DNA from: Subtercola boreus
GTDB lineage: Bacteria; Actinomycetota; Actinomycetes; Actinomycetales; Microbacteriaceae
Direction: 5' to 3'
DNA length: 64,000 nt
Assembly (NCBI RefSeq): GCF_003399645.1
Contig: NZ_NBXD01000007.1
Span: forward strand, 1 to 64,000
Shown here piece by piece: positions 39,932 to 48,287 of this stretch (positions within the stretch are counted from its first letter, which is position 1; every line of letters starts with the position of its first letter). A model generated the notes under the pieces. It worked only from the letters and a program-made list of their open reading frames with translations. It was not told the origin of the DNA and ran no database searches. The translations under genes were made by a program, and so were the position numbers.

Positions 39932-40525
39932 GTGACAGACCTGTCGATCATGACCGTGTGCTCGGGCAATATCTGCCGCTCGCCGCTCGCCGAGGGGCTG
40001 CTGCGCGCCGGTCTCGCGGCAATTCCCACCATCGAATTCTCGAGTGTCGGTGCCATCGCCCGTGACGGCGAACCGGTCACCGACGAGATTCTCGAGATCG
40101 GCCGCGCGAACGGCGTCGATCTCTCTCAGCACCACGCCCGCTACATGACCGAGCGGCTCGTGGGCGGCGCGGACCTGCTGTTCGCCATGGCACGCTCACA
40201 CCGCAGAGCCATCGTCGAACTGGTGCCGCGCAAGGTCGCTGTGACGTTCACCCTGCGGGAGTTCGCCCGGCTCGCCGCCCAGATCTCCGATGAGGAGATC
40301 GTTGCGGTTGCGGGCCGATTCGACACCACGCGCGACAAGCTGAGGGCGATGGTGACCCTCACGGGGTCGCGGCGGGGCCAGTCCGAAGCGCCCGCATCGC
40401 CCGACGACGACGACGTGATCGACCCCTACCGCCGCGACGACGACACCTACGCCCTGTCGGCGAGCCAGATCATCCCGGCCGTCGACCAGGTCGTACACAC
40501 CCTCTCCCTGGCTGCTCGATCCTGA
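39932..40525 (+). CDS. Low-molecular-weight protein-tyrosine phosphatase
   Basis: A 197-residue phosphatase. The catalytic P-loop is TVCSGNICRSPLAEGLL (Cys-x5-Arg), and the general-acid motif DPY is in DVIDPYRRDD. An extra segment between about residues 95 and 150 makes it longer than the usual 150-160. It starts at GTG 39932. Its place before a BY-kinase and an initiating sugar transferase marks it as the Wzb/PtpA-type partner that dephosphorylates the kinase in exopolysaccharide control. Confidence 0.9.
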   Translation: MTDLSIMTVCSGNICRSPLAEGLLRAGLAAIPTIEFSSVGAIARDGEPVTDEILEIGRANGVDLSQHHARYMTERLVGGADLLFAMARSHRRAIVELVPRKVAVTFTLREFARLAAQISDEEIVAVAGRFDTTRDKLRAMVTLTGSRRGQSEAPASPDDDDVIDPYRRDDDTYALSASQIIPAVDQVVHTLSLAARS

Positions 40526-40635
40526 CCAGACCGTAATACGCTCGAAACGTCTGCGAGATTGATCTGACTCCCTTCTGTGTCAAGATTGTCGAGAAAGGTG
40601 ACCATTAAGGGTCACATCGGGGAAAGGCTGACTAC

Positions 40636-42102
40636 GTGGAGCTTCGCGACTACCTGAGAGTTCTTCGCAAGGGCTGGATAATCATCCTGGCGCTGACTCT
40701 GCTCGGAGTAGCTCTCGGTTCGCTGTATTCTCTGGCGACAGCTCCGCTGTATTTGGCATCGAGCAAGGTGTTCGTCTCGGTTCAGTCGGCCGGAACCGTG
40801 AGTGAGCTCACGCAGGGCAGCAACTTCACGCAGAACCAGGTGAAGAGCTACACCGACGTGATCACGACACCTGCCGTACTGCAGCCGGTGATCGAACAGC
40901 TGGGCCTCTCGGTTTCTGCGCAGAGTCTGGCCAGCCAGGTCACCGCCAGCACAGCGACAGGTACCGTGGTCGTCGACATCGGTGTGACAGACCGCTCCCC
41001 TCAGCGCGCAGCTGACATCGCGAATGCCATCGCCTCGAGTTTCGAGACGACCGTCGGTCAGCTGGTTCCCGTAAACACCACAGGCACCAGTCCCGTCAAG
41101 ATCACTGTGCTGCAGGAGGCACTGGTTCCGAACGAGCCTGCCTCGCCGAATACCAAGCTCAACATCCTCCTCGGAGGAATCGTCGGCCTGATCCTCGGCG
41201 TGAGTGTCGCCATCCTCCGGCAGACACTCGACACGAAGGTGCGGAACGAACGCGACGTCGAGGCGGTTACCTCTGCGCCGATTCTGGGTGGCATAGCCTT
41301 CGACCCGAAGGCGGTCGAGCGGCCGCTCGTCGTTCAGGATGATCCACGGAGCCCGCGCGCTGAATCTTTCCGAACGCTGCGCACCAATCTTCAGTTCCTC
41401 GTCGCACTCGACAGGCCCAAGAGCTACGTCATCACGTCGTCCATACCCGGCGAGGGAAAGAGCACCTCTTCGGCGAACCTCGCCATCGTCACAGCTTCGG
41501 CGGGCACTCGAACAATCATCATCGACGCCGATCTCCGCAAGCCCAAGCTCGCCGAGTACCTGGGGCTGGAGGGTGGGGCTGGCCTCACGGACCTGTTGGT
41601 CGGTCGAGCCGAGATATCCGACGTCATTCAACGCTGGGGATCCCACGAACTCTACGTTCTCCCGGCTGGCCGCATACCCCCGAACCCCAGCGAGCTGCTT
41701 GGTTCGAAAGCCATGATCGGTCTCATCGAGGATCTCGAGGCAGAGTTCGATCTCGTCCTCTTCGACGCACCGCCGCTACTCCCGGTGACCGATGCTGCCA
41801 TTCTGGCGAAGCACACCGGTGGTGCGCTGGTGATGGTGGGTGCTGGTCGCGTACACCGCGGCCAGCTCAAGGGTGCGATCTCAGCGTTGACCAACGTCGG
41901 CTCCGACATTGCCGGGGTCGTCATGACGATGCTCCCGACGAAGGGGCCGGACTCCTACGGATATGGCCGATACGGTTATGGGTATGGCTACGGTTACGGT
42001 TACGGCGAGGAGTTCGACAACACTAAGGCTTCTGACCGCAAGCGACGCAAAACTAAGGCCGAGGTTCCCGATGACGCCATGGAGCTGACCTCCTTGAAAT
42101 AG
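40636..42102 (+). CDS. Polysaccharide co-polymerase / BY-type tyrosine kinase (Wzz-Wzc fusion)
   Basis: A 488-residue membrane protein. A Wzz domain (about 1-200) has helices near 15-37 and 175-197. The cytoplasmic BY-kinase follows: Walker A TSSIPGEGKSTSSANLA, Walker A' IIIDADLRKPKL and Walker B LVLFDAPPLLPVTD. The C-terminus has a dense tyrosine cluster (repeated YGYG, about residues 436-454), the autophosphorylation tail. It controls chain length and export of the polysaccharide and is a likely substrate of the phosphatase upstream. Start GTG 40636. Confidence 0.93.
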   Translation: MELRDYLRVLRKGWIIILALTLLGVALGSLYSLATAPLYLASSKVFVSVQSAGTVSELTQGSNFTQNQVKSYTDVITTPAVLQPVIEQLGLSVSAQSLASQVTASTATGTVVVDIGVTDRSPQRAADIANAIASSFETTVGQLVPVNTTGTSPVKITVLQEALVPNEPASPNTKLNILLGGIVGLILGVSVAILRQTLDTKVRNERDVEAVTSAPILGGIAFDPKAVERPLVVQDDPRSPRAESFRTLRTNLQFLVALDRPKSYVITSSIPGEGKSTSSANLAIVTASAGTRTIIIDADLRKPKLAEYLGLEGGAGLTDLLVGRAEISDVIQRWGSHELYVLPAGRIPPNPSELLGSKAMIGLIEDLEAEFDLVLFDAPPLLPVTDAAILAKHTGGALVMVGAGRVHRGQLKGAISALTNVGSDIAGVVMTMLPTKGPDSYGYGRYGYGYGYGYGYGEEFDNTKASDRKRRKTKAEVPDDAMELTSLK

Positions 42103-42194
42103 GTCCGGCCGGTCGGGTCGGCCCAGTTATACGACTCAATTCCAATGAAGATCGCCGAGGCGGACCGTCGTTCTCGGCGGTCACGTGGGGGAGC

Positions 42195-43676
42195 ATGATC
42201 CAAGAAGAAGCGCCAGTCCTGACGCACTCCGACTCGCGGACGCCCCGCGACTGGCGGGTCGTCTATGCCTCGCGGCTGATCATCAACGACCTGGTCGTGC
42301 TGGTGGTTGCCGTCTTCGGCACGCAGCTGCTCTGGTTCGGTGCGAATCTGGTCAAACCAGCCGTAGTCGGTACGGCGAACGTCGTCCTGAGCTACACCCT
42401 CGTGTCGTTCCTGCTCATCGCCGCGTGGGTGGCCGCCCTCAGCATCTACGGCACTCGGGAATACCGCATCGTCGGAACAGGCTCCGCCGAATACAAGCAG
42501 ATCCTCGACGCGACGCTGCGCCTGTTCGGGCTGGTCGCCATCATCGCGTTCCTCTCCCAGCTCGACCTCGCCCGCGGGTACATCATCGTCTCGCTGCCCC
42601 TGGGTGTGATCCTGCTGGTCTTCTCCCGCAGTATCTGGCGACGCTGGCTCGGAGTTCAGCGCAAGGCGGGCCTCTACAGTTCGCGGGTGCTGCTCGTCGG
42701 ATCCAGCGCCAGCGCGTCGCACATCGCCCGCGAACTCGCCCGGCAGCCCCAGGCCGGCTACCGCGTGGTCGGAGCGTGCGTACCCAGCGGACTGGTGGCC
42801 GGCTATCTGCCGGGCACCGACATCCCGGTGTTCGGCAACATCGACCACCTCAAGGGCGCGATGCTCTCGTGCGGTGCTGACACGGTGGTCATCACGTCCA
42901 GCGACGAACTCGCACCCGAGAAGGTCCGTGAGCTGAGTTGGGCGCTCGAGCCCGGCAGGCAGCACCTCGTCGTGGCCCCGTCGCTGACCGACATCGGTGG
43001 CCCGCGCATCCACACCCGCCCTGTTGCAGGCCTGCCGCTCATCCATGTGGAGACTCCGAGGTATGCCGGCGGCAAGCGCTTCACCAAGCGGGCGACCGAC
43101 ATCGTGCTGTCTTCGCTGTTGCTGCTCGGGCTCTCGCCGCTGCTCATCGCCGTGGCGATCGGCGTGCGGCTGAGCACACCGGGTGACATCTTCTTCAGGC
43201 AGGAGCGCATCGGGCTGAACGGCAGCCGGTTCAATATGCTCAAGTTCCGCTCGATGGTCGTCGACGCCGAGTCGCGGCTCGCTCTTCTGGAGAAGGAGAA
43301 GCGCTCCGAGGGCAACAGCATCCTCTTCAAGATGGCGAACGACCCCCGGGTCACACCGATCGGCAAGTTCCTGCGCCGCTACAGCCTCGACGAACTGCCG
43401 CAACTGTTCAACGTGCTCGGCGGCACGATGTCGATCGTCGGCCCGCGGCCTCCGATCCAGCGCGAAGTCGAGCAGTACGAGCGCCATGTGCACCGCCGCT
43501 TCCTGGTGAAGCCGGGCATCACCGGCCTCTGGCAGGTCAGCGGGCGCTCCGACCTCTCCTGGGAGGACTCGGTGCGCCTCGACCTCTATTACGTCGAAAA
43601 CTGGTCGATGACCGGCGATCTACTCATCCTCTGGAAGACGGCTCGCGCCGTTCTCGCTTCAGAGGGCGCCTACTAG
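42195..43676 (+). CDS. Initiating sugar transferase (polyprenyl-phosphate glycosylphosphotransferase, WcaJ/WbaP-like)
   Basis: A 493-residue membrane enzyme that moves a sugar-1-phosphate to undecaprenyl phosphate, starting repeat-unit synthesis. There are four N-terminal helices, a central Rossmann-like CoA-binding-type domain (VLLVGSSASASHIARELARQ), a fifth helix near residue 300, and the catalytic C-terminus (FKRATDIVLSS-like KRFTKRATDIVLSS, FNMLKFRSMVVDAE, LRRYSLDELPQLFNVLGG, SIVGPRPP, KPGITGLWQVSGRS). The first sugar cannot be told from the sequence. Start ATG 42195. Confidence 0.93.
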   Translation: MIQEEAPVLTHSDSRTPRDWRVVYASRLIINDLVVLVVAVFGTQLLWFGANLVKPAVVGTANVVLSYTLVSFLLIAAWVAALSIYGTREYRIVGTGSAEYKQILDATLRLFGLVAIIAFLSQLDLARGYIIVSLPLGVILLVFSRSIWRRWLGVQRKAGLYSSRVLLVGSSASASHIARELARQPQAGYRVVGACVPSGLVAGYLPGTDIPVFGNIDHLKGAMLSCGADTVVITSSDELAPEKVRELSWALEPGRQHLVVAPSLTDIGGPRIHTRPVAGLPLIHVETPRYAGGKRFTKRATDIVLSSLLLLGLSPLLIAVAIGVRLSTPGDIFFRQERIGLNGSRFNMLKFRSMVVDAESRLALLEKEKRSEGNSILFKMANDPRVTPIGKFLRRYSLDELPQLFNVLGGTMSIVGPRPPIQREVEQYERHVHRRFLVKPGITGLWQVSGRSDLSWEDSVRLDLYYVENWSMTGDLLILWKTARAVLASEGAY

Positions 43677-43706: not shown

Positions 43707-43949
43707 ATGAAGACCGCGATTTCGGTTCCCGACGGGGACTTTCATCGCTTCGAACGGATCGCCGCACGGCATGGCCTGAATCGTTCGGAGTTCTATCAGA
43801 TCGCGGGCAAGAAATTCGCCTATGAGCTGGAAGGCGAAGCGGAGCTCACGGCTCTGGCAAACGCGGTCATCGCTCGTGCTGGCCAGCCTGCCGGTGACGG
43901 CCTCCTTCTCCGCGAGGCTGAGCGAACCCTCGAGAACGAGAGCTGGTGA
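43707..43949 (+). CDS. MazE-like / ribbon-helix-helix antitoxin
   Basis: An 80-residue protein: MKTAISVPDGDFHRFERIAARHG is the typical start of actinobacterial ribbon-helix-helix antitoxins, NRSEFYQIAGKKFAYELE is the helical core, and the acidic C-terminus (REAERTLENESW) would bind the toxin. It appears intact. The following mazF-like gene is destroyed, so it is now an orphan antitoxin. Its TGA stop overlaps the original GTG of mazF (GTGA). Confidence 0.78.
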   Translation: MKTAISVPDGDFHRFERIAARHGLNRSEFYQIAGKKFAYELEGEAELTALANAVIARAGQPAGDGLLLREAERTLENESW

Positions 43950-44138
43950 TTGCTCGTGATCCCCGGCAATGTTCTCGTGCCATCTGATGCGTCAGGGCTG
44001 GGGAAGGACTCCGTCGCTGTGGTGTCTCAACTGGGCCCGGTCAGCCGGGAATACCTCGACCCGTATCCGGTCGGCCGTGTGCCGAGCTACCTGCTGACAC
44101 GAATCGCAGCGGGGGTGCGGCTCGCCACGGGCATCTGA
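43946..44138 (+). pseudogene. mazF/pemK-type toxin, internally deleted and frameshifted
   Basis: GTG ATT GCT CGT at 43946 reads VIAR, the usual first residues of this MazF subgroup, overlapping the antitoxin stop. The frame then reads into a stop within about 14 codons. In another frame, from about 43959, PGNVLVPSDASGLGKDSVAVVSQ and then LPxxLLxxI-like VPSYLLTRIAAGVRLATG match the C-terminal half of MazF. About 50 codons between these parts, including the catalytic N-terminal half, are gone, with a frame change at the junction. No functional RNase is expected. Confidence 0.75.
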
Positions 44139-44255: not shown

Positions 44256-45185
44256 TCAGCCTGATATGTCTTTGCGGCTGAACCACCAGGCGGCGAGCGT
44301 TCCGAGAACAAGGGCCCAGAGCAGCCCCGAGAGCACCGAATCGGCGACCGGGCCGAGGTCTGTCGGCGTCGTCAGAAACTGGCTGAACGCGGTCGAGTAG
44401 TGCGTCGGCAGGATGATGCGCAGGTCGCCCAGGGTCGGAATCGAGTCGAGTAGCCGTGACAGGATCGACACGAGAACGACCCCGCCGGCCGCCGCGAGCG
44501 GGCTGTTGGCCACGACGGTGAGCAGTGTTCCGAGACCGGCGGCCCAGAGCAATCCGGAGGCACCGGTCGCGGTGGCCAGCGCGAGCCTGCCGACCGAATC
44601 GCCAAGGGTGAGCTCCGGCCCACCGGGCACCTGGATGCCGCCGGGCCCGTACGACACAAGGCCCACCACGAGCGCGACCAGGGTGAGCGCCACGAGCCCC
44701 GCAAGGAGGAGAACGGATGCCACGGCCACCTTCACCCAGAGCAGCCGCAGGCGGGGCACGGGGATGGTCAGCAGATACTTCAGTGTCGAGCGCGATGCCT
44801 CGCCCGCGATCATGTCGCCGTAGAGCAGCGCGGCGATGAGGGTGACGAGAAACCCTTGTGTGAGCTGCACGACGAAGGCTGCGAAGGTTCCACCGCTCAC
44901 CTGGGCGAGCGCGACGAGGGTCGTGGCCGAGCTGCTTCCGCCCGATGGCGGCGGCCCGCCGATGAGCAGGGCGATGCGCACGATGACGGGCAGCAGCACG
45001 AGAATCAGCAGCACGATGCGCACGCGCCACTGACTCAGTTGGCGAGCCAGCTCGACCCGGAACGGCATGGTGTCCCTCGGTCGGTACCCGACGGATTCTG
45101 CCCCGCCACGGATCGACGCAGCCACTGTCTCTGCCCCGCTCAGGTCGCCGCCCGCCTTCCCGTTCCCGTTCACTCTCCCGCTCAC
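44256..45185 (-). CDS. ABC-2-type transporter permease
   Basis: A 309-residue membrane protein with about six hydrophobic segments after a 45-residue cytoplasmic N-terminus. LLYGDMIAGEASRSTLKYLLTIPVPRLRLLWVKVA is typical of ABC-2 permeases (GDxxAxExxxgTlkylLt region; quoted in two parts as GDMIAGEASRSTLK and YLLTIPVPRLRLLW). Its start overlaps the stop of the hydrolase-ATPase fusion gene by four bases, so the fusion supplies the ATPase and the two work as one transporter. The cargo is unknown. Confidence 0.85.
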   Translation of the reverse strand: MSGRVNGNGKAGGDLSGAETVAASIRGGAESVGYRPRDTMPFRVELARQLSQWRVRIVLLILVLLPVIVRIALLIGGPPPSGGSSSATTLVALAQVSGGTFAAFVVQLTQGFLVTLIAALLYGDMIAGEASRSTLKYLLTIPVPRLRLLWVKVAVASVLLLAGLVALTLVALVVGLVSYGPGGIQVPGGPELTLGDSVGRLALATATGASGLLWAAGLGTLLTVVANSPLAAAGGVVLVSILSRLLDSIPTLGDLRIILPTHYSTAFSQFLTTPTDLGPVADSVLSGLLWALVLGTLAAWWFSRKDISG

Positions 45186-48079
45186 GCCGACGGCTCCGTC
45201 GCACCGATGAGCGAGAGGAAGGCTTCTTCGAGGTGCCGCCCGCGCTGCAGATCGGTCACGCCGACCCCTGCCGCGACCAGTGCCGCGACCACCGCCTCGA
45301 CCGGATGCTCACCCGGCACGACCCGGATCCCCTCCGGCGCGTGGGTCTCGGCCCGCTCGACGCCCAGAGCCCCCACCGCGGCGAGCGCTGCCGGCACGTC
45401 GGTGACGCCGATCACGAGCTCGCTCGCATCCCCCGCGATCTCGCCCACCGGCCCGGTTGCCACGACACGACCGTGCGACATCACCACGACATGGGTGCAG
45501 GTGAGCTCGACCTCGCCGAGCAGGTGGGAGGAGACGATCACGGTGCGGCCTCCTTCGGCGTACCTCCGCAGCACTCCCCGCAGTGCGGTGATCTGGGGCG
45601 GGTCGAGCCCGTTGGTCGGCTCGTCGAGAACGAGCAGATCGGGCATCCCGAGCATGGCCTGCGCGATGGCGAGGCGTTGGCGCATGCCCTGGCTGTAGCC
45701 GCGGACAGGCTTGGCGAGGGCTCCGCCGAGGTCGGCGACGGCGAGCGCCCCGTCGAATCGAGCTTCGGAGCGCGGGCGCCCGGTCGCAGCCCAATAGAGC
45801 TCGAGGTTGCGGCGTCCTGAGAGATGCGGCAGAAACCCGGGCCCCTCGATGAAGCAGCCGAGCCGAGCGAGAACCGGTGAGCCGGGGCCGATGGTCGTTC
45901 CGAACGACGTGGCGGTGCCCGAATCGGGGCGGATGAGGCCGGCCACCATCCGCAGCGTGGTCGTCTTACCGGCGCCGTTCTCGCCGAGAAGGCCGAGCAC
46001 CTGCCCACGTTCGACCGTGAACGACACGTCGTCGACGGCGAGAAAGCCCGAGCGGAAGCGCTTGGTCAGGCCCCGGATGCTCAGCGGAGGCCCTTCGGCC
46101 GAGACCGGTTCCTCCGGTACTCGTCGCTCTTCCGGCACTTCTGGCAATTCTGGCGCTCCCGGCCCGGCCACGGCCCGGCCACCCGATGCCCCGGGCAGGC
46201 CTCCAGCGCCAGCGACACCTCCGGCCACCACCCGGGCTGCCGTGCGCCGCGCGCGAACCACGGCCCCGACCACCAGGGCGAGCGCCACCAGTAGCGTCGC
46301 AACGATACCGAGGAGCACTCCGGTCGAGGGCTGGCCCGCGCTCTGGTCGGTCGCCGCCGGCGTGACAGTCGGCAGGGTGATCGGCCCGTCGACCGCCACC
46401 AGGTACGCGGCCGGGGTCGGGGATCCGGCGAACTGCGAATCGGTGGTGCGCACGGTGAGCGTCAGGCGGTCTCCGGGCGTGAAGCTCCACGACGTCGCGG
46501 GCAGGGTTACGGTGACCTCGGCACCCGTCGCGGGCAGCGCCACCCTGATCGGCGCGACGCCGCCCGGCAGCACGCGTACCGCGTCTCCGGTGCTCACCGA
46601 CAGTTGCGCGTACAGCAGCGCCTCCGAGGGAGCCGAGCCGGGTGCCGGGCTGACGCGCAGGCGCACGGTGGCGGCCCCCGCGAGCACGACGGGATCGGTC
46701 AGTGTGGCCGAGACGAAACGCGCCTGCTCGGCCGGAGGGTTGGCGGCAGACAGCAACCCTGCAGCTGTACGGCCCGCCACGCTGCTGGAATCGAGACCCG
46801 GCAGCCCGGTCACTGCTGCCGGCTGCCCGCCCGGTGGGTTCACGACCGTCGACTCGGGGCCCGCGAGAGCGAGTTGCTGCCCTGAACCCGATCCATTCAG
46901 TCCCGGGTAGGCCGTCGCCGTGATAGTCTTGCCGAAGGCGGTTGCGCTCGGCGGCACTGCGTAGCTGAAGGTCGCGGGCACAGGCAGGCTCGCCGTCAGG
47001 TGGTCGGCGAGCCACGACCGGATGATCGTGTCGGTGCCGTCGATGCCCCCGCCGTCGTGGCCGCCATTGAACCACTGCACCTGCACGGGCGCGCCGGCCG
47101 CCGTCAGCTGCTTCGCGTTCGCATCGGCCTGGTCGAGCCCGAACAGATTGTCCTGCAGACCCTGCAGGAGGAGGGTCGGGGCGTGCATGCCGGCGAGCAC
47201 GGTCGAGGGAGAGGAACGGGCGAGCAGGCCCAGCTCTGCCGAGGTCGGTTGTGCACCGGTGACGAGGTTCTGGTAGAGCGCGCAGAACTCGGGGGTGAAG
47301 CGGCCGCACGGGTCGGTGGAGGTGATCCCGGCGCCGTAGAGGCGCGAAGCCCAGCCCGACTTGAAGTCCCGAAGGGCCCCCGATGCAACCGCGCCGGGTG
47401 CCTTCTCGGCGGCGGCAGGGGCGGCTGTCGCCCCGTCGATGCTTCCCGCCGAGCTCGGAACCAGCGCCTGGGCGAGATCGTTCCACGTGATGGCCGCGAC
47501 AACCGTGTCGACCCGGGGATCCGTCGCACCGAGCATAAGCGCCAGGGCGCCACCGTACGATCCGCCGACCGCTCCGACGAGCGGGTCGCCGTTCTGCTGC
47601 TCGACCGCCGGGTCACCGGCCAGAACGTCGACGAGGGCCCGGGCATCCGGAACCTCACCATCGAGCGAGTCGAGCCCGATCGAGCCGCCCGACTGGCCGA
47701 ACCCACGGGCCGTGTAGGCGAGCACGACGTATCCCGCGTCTTGAAGCTCCCTCGCCTCGGGCCCGAGATCGGCCTTGGTCTGCCCGAAACCATGGGCGAG
47801 CAGCACCGCCGGCGCGGGGGTCACGGCGGGCGTGTAAAGGTCGACGTCGAGCGGGATGCTCGTGCTGCTGCCCGGCGCCGAGGGTACCTGCACGAAGAAC
47901 GACTCCACGGAATCCGACGTGGGCTGCGGCGAACTCGCAGCAGAAGCAGGTGCTGCACCGGCACCGATTGCGAGCGAGGTCGAGAGCGCGAGCACGGCCA
48001 GCGCCGCTGGAACCAGCCGGCGGCGGCGCCGAGTGACGCCTGAGGCCGCGTGGTGGTGCGGTCGGTGCGTGCGTCCCAT
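45182..48079 (-). CDS. Exported alpha/beta-hydrolase (S15/CocE-like) - transmembrane - ABC ATPase fusion
   Basis: A protein of about 965 residues joining domains that lie on opposite sides of the membrane. The N-terminus has a basic stretch and signal sequence (TRRRRRLVPAALAVLAL to APASA). An extracytoplasmic S15/X-Pro-peptidase-like hydrolase follows: nucleophile in VGAVGGSYGGALAL, Asp in LLQGLQDNLF, His in FNGGHDGG. A C-terminal jelly-roll-type region runs to TLTVRTTDS. One membrane helix (STGVLLGIVATLLVALALVV) leads to a cytoplasmic ABC ATPase: Walker A GENGAGKTTT, signature YSQGMRQRLA, Walker B LLVLDEPTNGLDP, H-loop SSHLLGE. All catalytic motifs look intact. ATG 48079 follows GGCGAGG; an in-frame ATG at 48142 is the alternative. 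It is coupled to the permease gene. Confidence 0.88.
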   Translation of the reverse strand: MGRTHRPHHHAASGVTRRRRRLVPAALAVLALSTSLAIGAGAAPASAASSPQPTSDSVESFFVQVPSAPGSSTSIPLDVDLYTPAVTPAPAVLLAHGFGQTKADLGPEARELQDAGYVVLAYTARGFGQSGGSIGLDSLDGEVPDARALVDVLAGDPAVEQQNGDPLVGAVGGSYGGALALMLGATDPRVDTVVAAITWNDLAQALVPSSAGSIDGATAAPAAAEKAPGAVASGALRDFKSGWASRLYGAGITSTDPCGRFTPEFCALYQNLVTGAQPTSAELGLLARSSPSTVLAGMHAPTLLLQGLQDNLFGLDQADANAKQLTAAGAPVQVQWFNGGHDGGGIDGTDTIIRSWLADHLTASLPVPATFSYAVPPSATAFGKTITATAYPGLNGSGSGQQLALAGPESTVVNPPGGQPAAVTGLPGLDSSSVAGRTAAGLLSAANPPAEQARFVSATLTDPVVLAGAATVRLRVSPAPGSAPSEALLYAQLSVSTGDAVRVLPGGVAPIRVALPATGAEVTVTLPATSWSFTPGDRLTLTVRTTDSQFAGSPTPAAYLVAVDGPITLPTVTPAATDQSAGQPSTGVLLGIVATLLVALALVVGAVVRARRTAARVVAGGVAGAGGLPGASGGRAVAGPGAPELPEVPEERRVPEEPVSAEGPPLSIRGLTKRFRSGFLAVDDVSFTVERGQVLGLLGENGAGKTTTLRMVAGLIRPDSGTATSFGTTIGPGSPVLARLGCFIEGPGFLPHLSGRRNLELYWAATGRPRSEARFDGALAVADLGGALAKPVRGYSQGMRQRLAIAQAMLGMPDLLVLDEPTNGLDPPQITALRGVLRRYAEGGRTVIVSSHLLGEVELTCTHVVVMSHGRVVATGPVGEIAGDASELVIGVTDVPAALAAVGALGVERAETHAPEGIRVVPGEHPVEAVVAALVAAGVGVTDLQRGRHLEEAFLSLIGATEPSA

Positions 48080-48287
48080 CCGTGACCTCGCCTGGTGCAG
48101 GGTAGATGCTGACGAGGGTCGCGTCGGTCGCGTCGTCTTCATGAACGTTACCCGCCAGAACGCCGGGCCTTGCCCCTACCGCATCATCGGGGCGTATCTA
48201 CTCCACCGGGCTGACGCTGTCGACCCCGTTCGGGCGGCTCGGGCCGACCGTATCGTGGGCCCATCATCCACCGCGAGAGGACCTCCG

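Follow-up and report, generated by a model that had tools for sequence, protein, structure and literature searches.

What does a serine hydrolase, predicted to face outward, do on the ATPase subunit of an ATP-binding cassette (ABC) transporter? The question is raised by two overlapping genes in a stretch of 64,000 nucleotides from Subtercola boreus (assembly GCF_003399645.1, contig NZ_NBXD01000007.1, positions 1 to 64,000; hereafter the window), one of which codes for an S15/CocE-type hydrolase fused through a membrane helix to an ABC ATPase and the other for an ABC-2 permease. We know of no described ABC transporter whose ATPase subunit is covalently joined to an extracytoplasmic enzyme, and the fused peptidases known to us act on the cytosolic side; no published description of the fusion was found in the literature covered, beyond which most subscription papers lie. 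We found that the pair is a widely conserved actinobacterial two-gene membrane machine and that the fusion is not a chance product, as the same single-frame architecture is present in other genomes. The most likely reading, to which we give an evenly poised probability, is an ABC-2 exporter with the hydrolase held at its exit, and this, if true, would constitute an undescribed route for coupling ATP to chemistry outside the cell.

A single-frame fusion with a constant permease partner

The fusion frame in the window opens with an ATG and has zero internal stops, and its TGA is overlain by the GTG of the permease gene in a 4-bp overlap; Met22 (48079) is possibly the true start, a by-eye judgement from the shorter N-termini of relatives. 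The fusion scores above the Pfam cut-offs for Peptidase_S15 (residues 98-347; 57.9 bits against a cut-off of 23), PepX_C (468-577) and ABC_tran (704-844), and the permease above that for ABC2_membrane_2, which places it among the ABC2_membrane families. An AlphaFold model of the fusion, made with a 29-sequence alignment (mean pLDDT 77.6, pTM 0.64), is confident for the hydrolase, the beta domain and the ATPase, shows a long helix at residues 607-639 and is low over a linker at 637-681, while the permease model (mean pLDDT 86.8) is nearly all helical.

Of the 579 relatives in a genome scan the best 80 were kept, and each of these is actinobacterial by title. In 79 of 80 named-genome loci both halves lie in one frame, the exception being a contig end; 78 have the permease on the same strand, downstream of the fusion, and the other two stop at a contig edge. 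A first-pass annotation of the window had proposed a hydrolase with its triad, a jelly-roll, a helix and an ABC ATPase in one frame, tied to an overlapping ABC-2 permease gene; these counts strongly support both proposals, and the homologues, far from having halves that are never fused or neighboring, are themselves fused in 79/80 loci. The gene caller missed the fusion in 39 of 104 loci (L109, in our numbering of loci, being truly without one) and in 3 of 11 cases in a comparison within the genus; permease adjacency was scored instead by profile search on open frames, and among loci with a gene-caller prediction of the fusion the permease is downstream in 64 of 65. All 25 members of the permease alignment (A3) match an ABC2 family.

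The architecture recurs across actinobacteria, as the annotation had asked to be checked: at least 67 of the 296 sampled genomes of the class carry the fusion, which among the best 80 of 579 relatives is spread over many actinobacterial families. The genera that have it include ones known for antibiotics, and it is kept in 3 of the 27 listed genomes of a family with small genomes (f44; 1.3-1.4 Mb). A 791-residue version with S15, PepX_C and ABC_tran domains is encoded on a Tsukamurella plasmid, where it bears the annotation 'alpha/beta fold hydrolase' and again overlaps by 4 bp a gene annotated 'ABC transporter permease'. Divergence of the hydrolase is correlated with that of the permease (Spearman 0.89) and each with that of the ATPase (0.78; 74 of the 80 loci, with 100 shuffles giving 0.23 or less), and common descent alone could be sufficient for most of the hydrolase-permease co-divergence.

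Conservation of the hydrolase and ATPase engines

Residue conservation was assessed in 149 different fused sequences, the window included (75 from named loci, 69 from L009-L090 and 5 others), a set that omits repeats, frames with fewer than 400 hydrolase-profile positions and those that do not exceed 200 bits with the ATPase profile, so that the filter drops L041 and L193. The 20 rows labeled 'unfused' include two end-cut fusions (L114, L088) and three repeats, and the remaining 15 were used for the tree. Each member of the Ser-Asp-His triad is present in all 149 fused sequences, both the Peptidase_S15 and the PepX_C matches are found in 29 of 29 members of the fusion alignment (A2), and the ATPase motif set (Walker A and B, signature, H-loop), complete in the window, is largely invariant in the same alignment. 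The single frame, the intact catalytic and ATPase motifs, the intervening membrane helix and the constant pairing with permeases of one family are what the sequences show, and the conservation suggests that both engines are in use.

Three further residues are fixed or nearly so in the fused set, Arg146 (146/149), Glu163 (149/149) and Asp166 (149/149); the 20 unfused rows have them in just 6, 4 and 7 cases, respectively, a contrast that sets the fused hydrolase apart as a distinct subfamily. In a hydrolase tree made by a quick method from 55 of the 149 fused and the 15 unfused sequences (tree and alignment rows were chosen by hand or at random), a single branch with a support of 98 separates the fused hydrolases from the unfused. 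The permease is absent from all 13 standalone-hydrolase loci (14-18 kb of context each); the stretches of three, L197, L204 and L205, contain a different ABC ATPase, and L109 has neither permease nor ABC ATPase. The leading Foldseek matches are PaL lipase (8yzn/8yzo), also the top match by profile, and cocaine esterase, further matches lower in the list being 4pf1, an aminopeptidase, and 1mpx, an alpha-amino-acid ester hydrolase. The fused enzyme shares with these S15/CocE hydrolases (cocaine esterase, alpha-amino-acid ester hydrolase, PaL lipase 8yzn) the combination of an alpha/beta-hydrolase and a beta domain and the Ser-Asp-His triad, but differs from them in the added membrane helix and ABC ATPase. 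With fold similarity as the sole guide, an esterase or acylase activity would be favored over that of an X-Pro peptidase.

Predicted membrane topology

The N-terminal hydrophobic segment exceeds the hydropathy cut-off in 140 of the 149 fused sequences; what had been annotated as a signal peptide is a hydrophobic segment (residues 43-64) that may be a signal peptide or a signal anchor. The second segment, between the jelly-roll and the ATPase (helix 2), is above the cut-off in 146 of 149, the other three being unscorable because their domain limits overlap, and its Arg630 and Arg632 are nearly invariant. The charge following helix 2 is more positive in 105 sequences, equal in 30 and less positive in 14. 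The gap from hydrolase to ATPase measures 51-78 residues in the middle 90% of the 149, with the 98 residues of the window the longest. Among distinct standalone relatives of the hydrolase, a hydropathy segment after the jelly-roll is absent in 13 of 15, with L204 and L210, both with longer tails, as the exceptions.

In 147 of the 149 fused sequences Cys279 and Cys287 occur together, two lack both and none has one alone, with exactly two cysteines in 144 of 149 hydrolase cores; among the unfused rows the pair is present in 18 of 20 and jointly absent in two. Such joint presence and loss is expected of a disulfide and fits an oxidizing, outside location. The standalone relative in L210 (8310-11270) bears C-terminal cell-wall-binding repeats (CWB2) on its tail, which also fits placement outside the membrane. 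From the cysteine pair, the positive residues after helix 2 and this wall-binding relative we infer that the hydrolase probably lies outside, and the predicted topology of the annotation, with hydrolase outside and ATPase inside, is well supported by hydropathy, charge and cysteines (Table 1).

Table 1. Coordinates in the window of the fusion gene, its parts and the permease gene.
Feature	Coordinates	Strand	Basis
Fusion gene, hydrolase - membrane helix - ABC ATPase	45182..48142	minus	986 aa, one open frame; Pfam S15 + PepX_C + ABC_tran; model
N-terminal hydrophobic segment, residues 43-64, after RRRRR, A-S-A near end; signal peptide or signal anchor	47951..48016	minus	Sequence
Alpha/beta-hydrolase domain, S15/CocE type, residues about 78-383	46994..47911	minus	Pfam, model, Foldseek to PaL lipase and cocaine esterase
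Nucleophile Ser195 (GGSYGG)	47558..47560	minus	Motif and alignment; 149/149 fused sequences
Cys279 ... Cys287, putative disulfide	47282..47308	minus	Cysteine co-occurrence across fused sequences
Catalytic acid Asp331	47150..47152	minus	Motif and alignment; 149/149 fused sequences
Catalytic His362	47057..47059	minus	Motif and alignment; 149/149 fused sequences
PepX_C-like beta (jelly-roll) domain, residues 392-600	46343..46969	minus	Pfam PepX_C; model strands
Membrane helix 2, residues 607-639, RARR near end	46226..46324	minus	Model helix; hydropathy
Gly/Pro/Glu-rich linker, residues 640-686	46085..46225	minus	pLDDT <50 at 637-681
ABC ATPase, residues 687-900: Walker A GENGAGKT, signature YSQGMRQR, Walker B LLVLDEP, H-loop His873	45443..46084	minus	Pfam ABC_tran; A2 conserved columns
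ABC-2 permease, 309 aa from GTG	44256..45185	minus	Pfam ABC2_membrane_2; model; Foldseek to NosY

Relation to known transporters and a proposed mechanism

Both the ATPase and the permease have matches in ABC exporter families. Of the NCBIfam models, DrrA (TIGR01188) matches the ATPase best, at 164.2 bits and so under the cut-off of 312.45, and the ATPase matches also include NosF, 1vpl and Rv1218c. For the permease, a profile search of solved structures gave NosY as the sole match up to E 0.1 (a weak one, E 0.053), and NosY also comes first in the fold search (E 5.7e-4, TM 0.58), followed by the weaker matches ABCG25, PmtCD and a mycobacterial pump. The DrrA/DrrB-type ABC-2 exporters are alike in the families of ATPase and permease and in their two adjacent genes, but the ATPase here is membrane-anchored, carries a hydrolase and falls below the DrrA cut-off. 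The NosDFY system, which serves copper-site assembly of nitrous oxide reductase, also has an extracytoplasmic partner and may resemble the pair in its core, NosF being among the ATPase matches and NosY the nearest solved permease, if a weak match by profile. NosD is a beta-helix with a role in copper handling, and in NosDFY ATP works the extracytoplasmic partner rather than pumping across the membrane; here, by contrast, the partner is not a NosD-type beta-helix but a serine hydrolase with a beta domain, joined to the ATPase through a membrane helix.

Peptidase-containing ABC exporters (PCATs), which bear a C39 peptidase, likewise have a hydrolase and an ABC ATPase on one polypeptide and possibly combine export with processing. 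Theirs is a cysteine hydrolase lying inside, whereas the present one is a serine hydrolase predicted to lie outside, with the permease encoded by a separate gene; a Pfam scan of the window fusion up to E 0.1 gave no match to C39. FtsEX-type systems with extracellular hydrolases offer another parallel, in that an external hydrolase may be controlled by ATP hydrolysis within the cell. Their hydrolase, however, is a protein of its own and their membrane subunit is FtsX, whereas the membrane subunit of the present pair is ABC-2, Pfam yielding ABC2 families only and none of the FtsX type. A known defense system was rejected, as the PADLOC matches are confined to the ATPase with none for the permease, and so was phage cargo, as the hydrolase part, searched against 50,697 phage records, matched none of them at 1e-10.

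We posit a two-gene ABC-2 transporter in which the membrane-anchored ATPase subunit bears an S15/CocE-type serine hydrolase on the extracytoplasmic side. The transporter would consist of two fusion subunits and two permeases, and this 2:2 assembly would put two hydrolases above the permease exit. The exported cargo may be a small molecule, a short peptide or a lipid-like ester, and the tethered hydrolase would cleave the cargo, or a partner of the cargo, during its emergence. Export, and action of the hydrolase on the exported substrate, are what we infer from the arrangement, and the earlier suggestion of ATP-driven export tied to processing of an exported peptide or ester is in this respect plausible.

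Evidence against the exporter reading and alternative explanations

Several observations weigh against an exporter with a processing hydrolase. That NosY is the nearest solved permease suggests a machine for which export is not required. Two loci indicate that the hydrolase is dispensable for the transporter core: L191 (8160-10642) has a close relative of the ATPase (324 bits) and a permease but no hydrolase, and L192 (8584-10386) has helix, ATPase and permease in one frame with no hydrolase match in 18 kb, so that this transporter family comes in a further arrangement. The fused rows do not fall on a single side of a branch in the ATPase tree (2 changes), and L191 and L192 sit on long branches among or beside the fused ATPases, so that this tree shows no single origin of the latter. 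The fusion frame of L193 (7772-9871) is without the N-terminal hydrolase part and the nucleophile, and the missing piece was not found by profile in the remaining frames. Within the genus the distribution is patchy, with the fusion, always in a single frame, in 7 of 11 genomes (G001, G005, G006, G008-G011). Besides L193, one more fetched frame is damaged: in L041, a draft genome, the hydrolase of the fusion is split across two reading frames. A contig of another genome (G365:C11) has a second copy with one internal TGA.

The points from NosY lead to a serious though less probable alternative, mechanical coupling as in NosDFY, in which the ATPase cycle moves the permease and helix 2 and thereby opens, closes or repositions the outside hydrolase; export would be unnecessary and the hydrolase would be an ATP-gated envelope enzyme. 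NosY is the nearest solved permease by both profile and fold, NosF is among the ATPase matches, and the extracellular domain is linked to the ATPase by one helix and a gap of 51-78 residues in the middle 90% of sequences, but the NosY sequence match is weak, exporter permeases come next in the fold list, the partner is an enzyme rather than the beta-helix of NosD, and the linker, longest in the window, is modeled as disordered and would make a poor lever. That the ABC motor inside drives the catalytic cycle or the substrate access of an extracellular hydrolase, via the fused helix and the NosY-like permease, is on our estimate unlikely; if true, it would establish transmembrane mechano-enzymes as a new class, and one that is widespread in Actinomycetota. 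The pair offers a testable case of export-coupled processing versus mechanical gating.

Distinctly unlikely is a role in envelope detoxification or self-protection, with the transporter expelling or barring a toxic compound that the hydrolase inactivates outside: the DrrA match of the ATPase (though below the cut-off), the patchy distribution and, by eye, TetR-regulator-like genes near some same-genus copies speak for it, but no constant regulator or biosynthetic neighbor was seen at gene-called loci and the fusion is retained in some small genomes (f44). It is very improbable that the fusion merely anchors or co-expresses two independently acting parts; standalone hydrolases and hydrolase-free transporters both occur, yet the halves are fused in 79 of 80 loci, helix and permease are constant, and the fused hydrolases fall on one side of one branch. 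A frameshift or assembly artefact has virtually no chance of being the explanation and was rejected, since isolated broken frames such as that of L041 have no counterpart in the window and the same frame recurs intact in many other assemblies.

Gene neighborhoods

Among the seven same-genus loci with a gene-called fusion (the window, G010, G001, G008, G005, G006 and G009), no constant neighbor besides the permease was seen; the window shares none with the others, which share one or two pairwise. In other orders, the neighbors are lineage-specific only, e.g., families with a TerC and a UvrB member, present in 22 and 20 of 65 loci, respectively, and each named from one member, and these counts are partial because the gene caller missed loci. 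A function derived from conserved neighbors was rejected on this ground, and so was a chance juxtaposition of the pair, as permease adjacency holds in 78 of 80 loci while the surroundings within the genus vary. Given such varied surroundings, the pair suggests itself as a self-contained unit. The TerC-family gene, named from L148 (5532-6506), is there and in 21 further loci located upstream of the fusion and on the other strand, and a gene cluster that has an S9 peptidase among its members is close by in 17 loci. Streptomyces loci near uvrA/uvrB were considered as candidates for this permease and not used, their identity being unproven (PMC3087709, PMC10771440).

On the plus strand beside the permease in the window are two small neighboring genes (43707-44138; 80 and 60 aa, with 6 bases between), antitoxin-toxin-like by eye, neither of which has a Pfam match up to E 0.01. 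Next to these, also on the plus strand (39932-43676), is an exopolysaccharide-type set comprising a low-molecular-weight tyrosine phosphatase, a Wzz/AAA_31 protein with a GYGYG tail and a bacterial sugar transferase.

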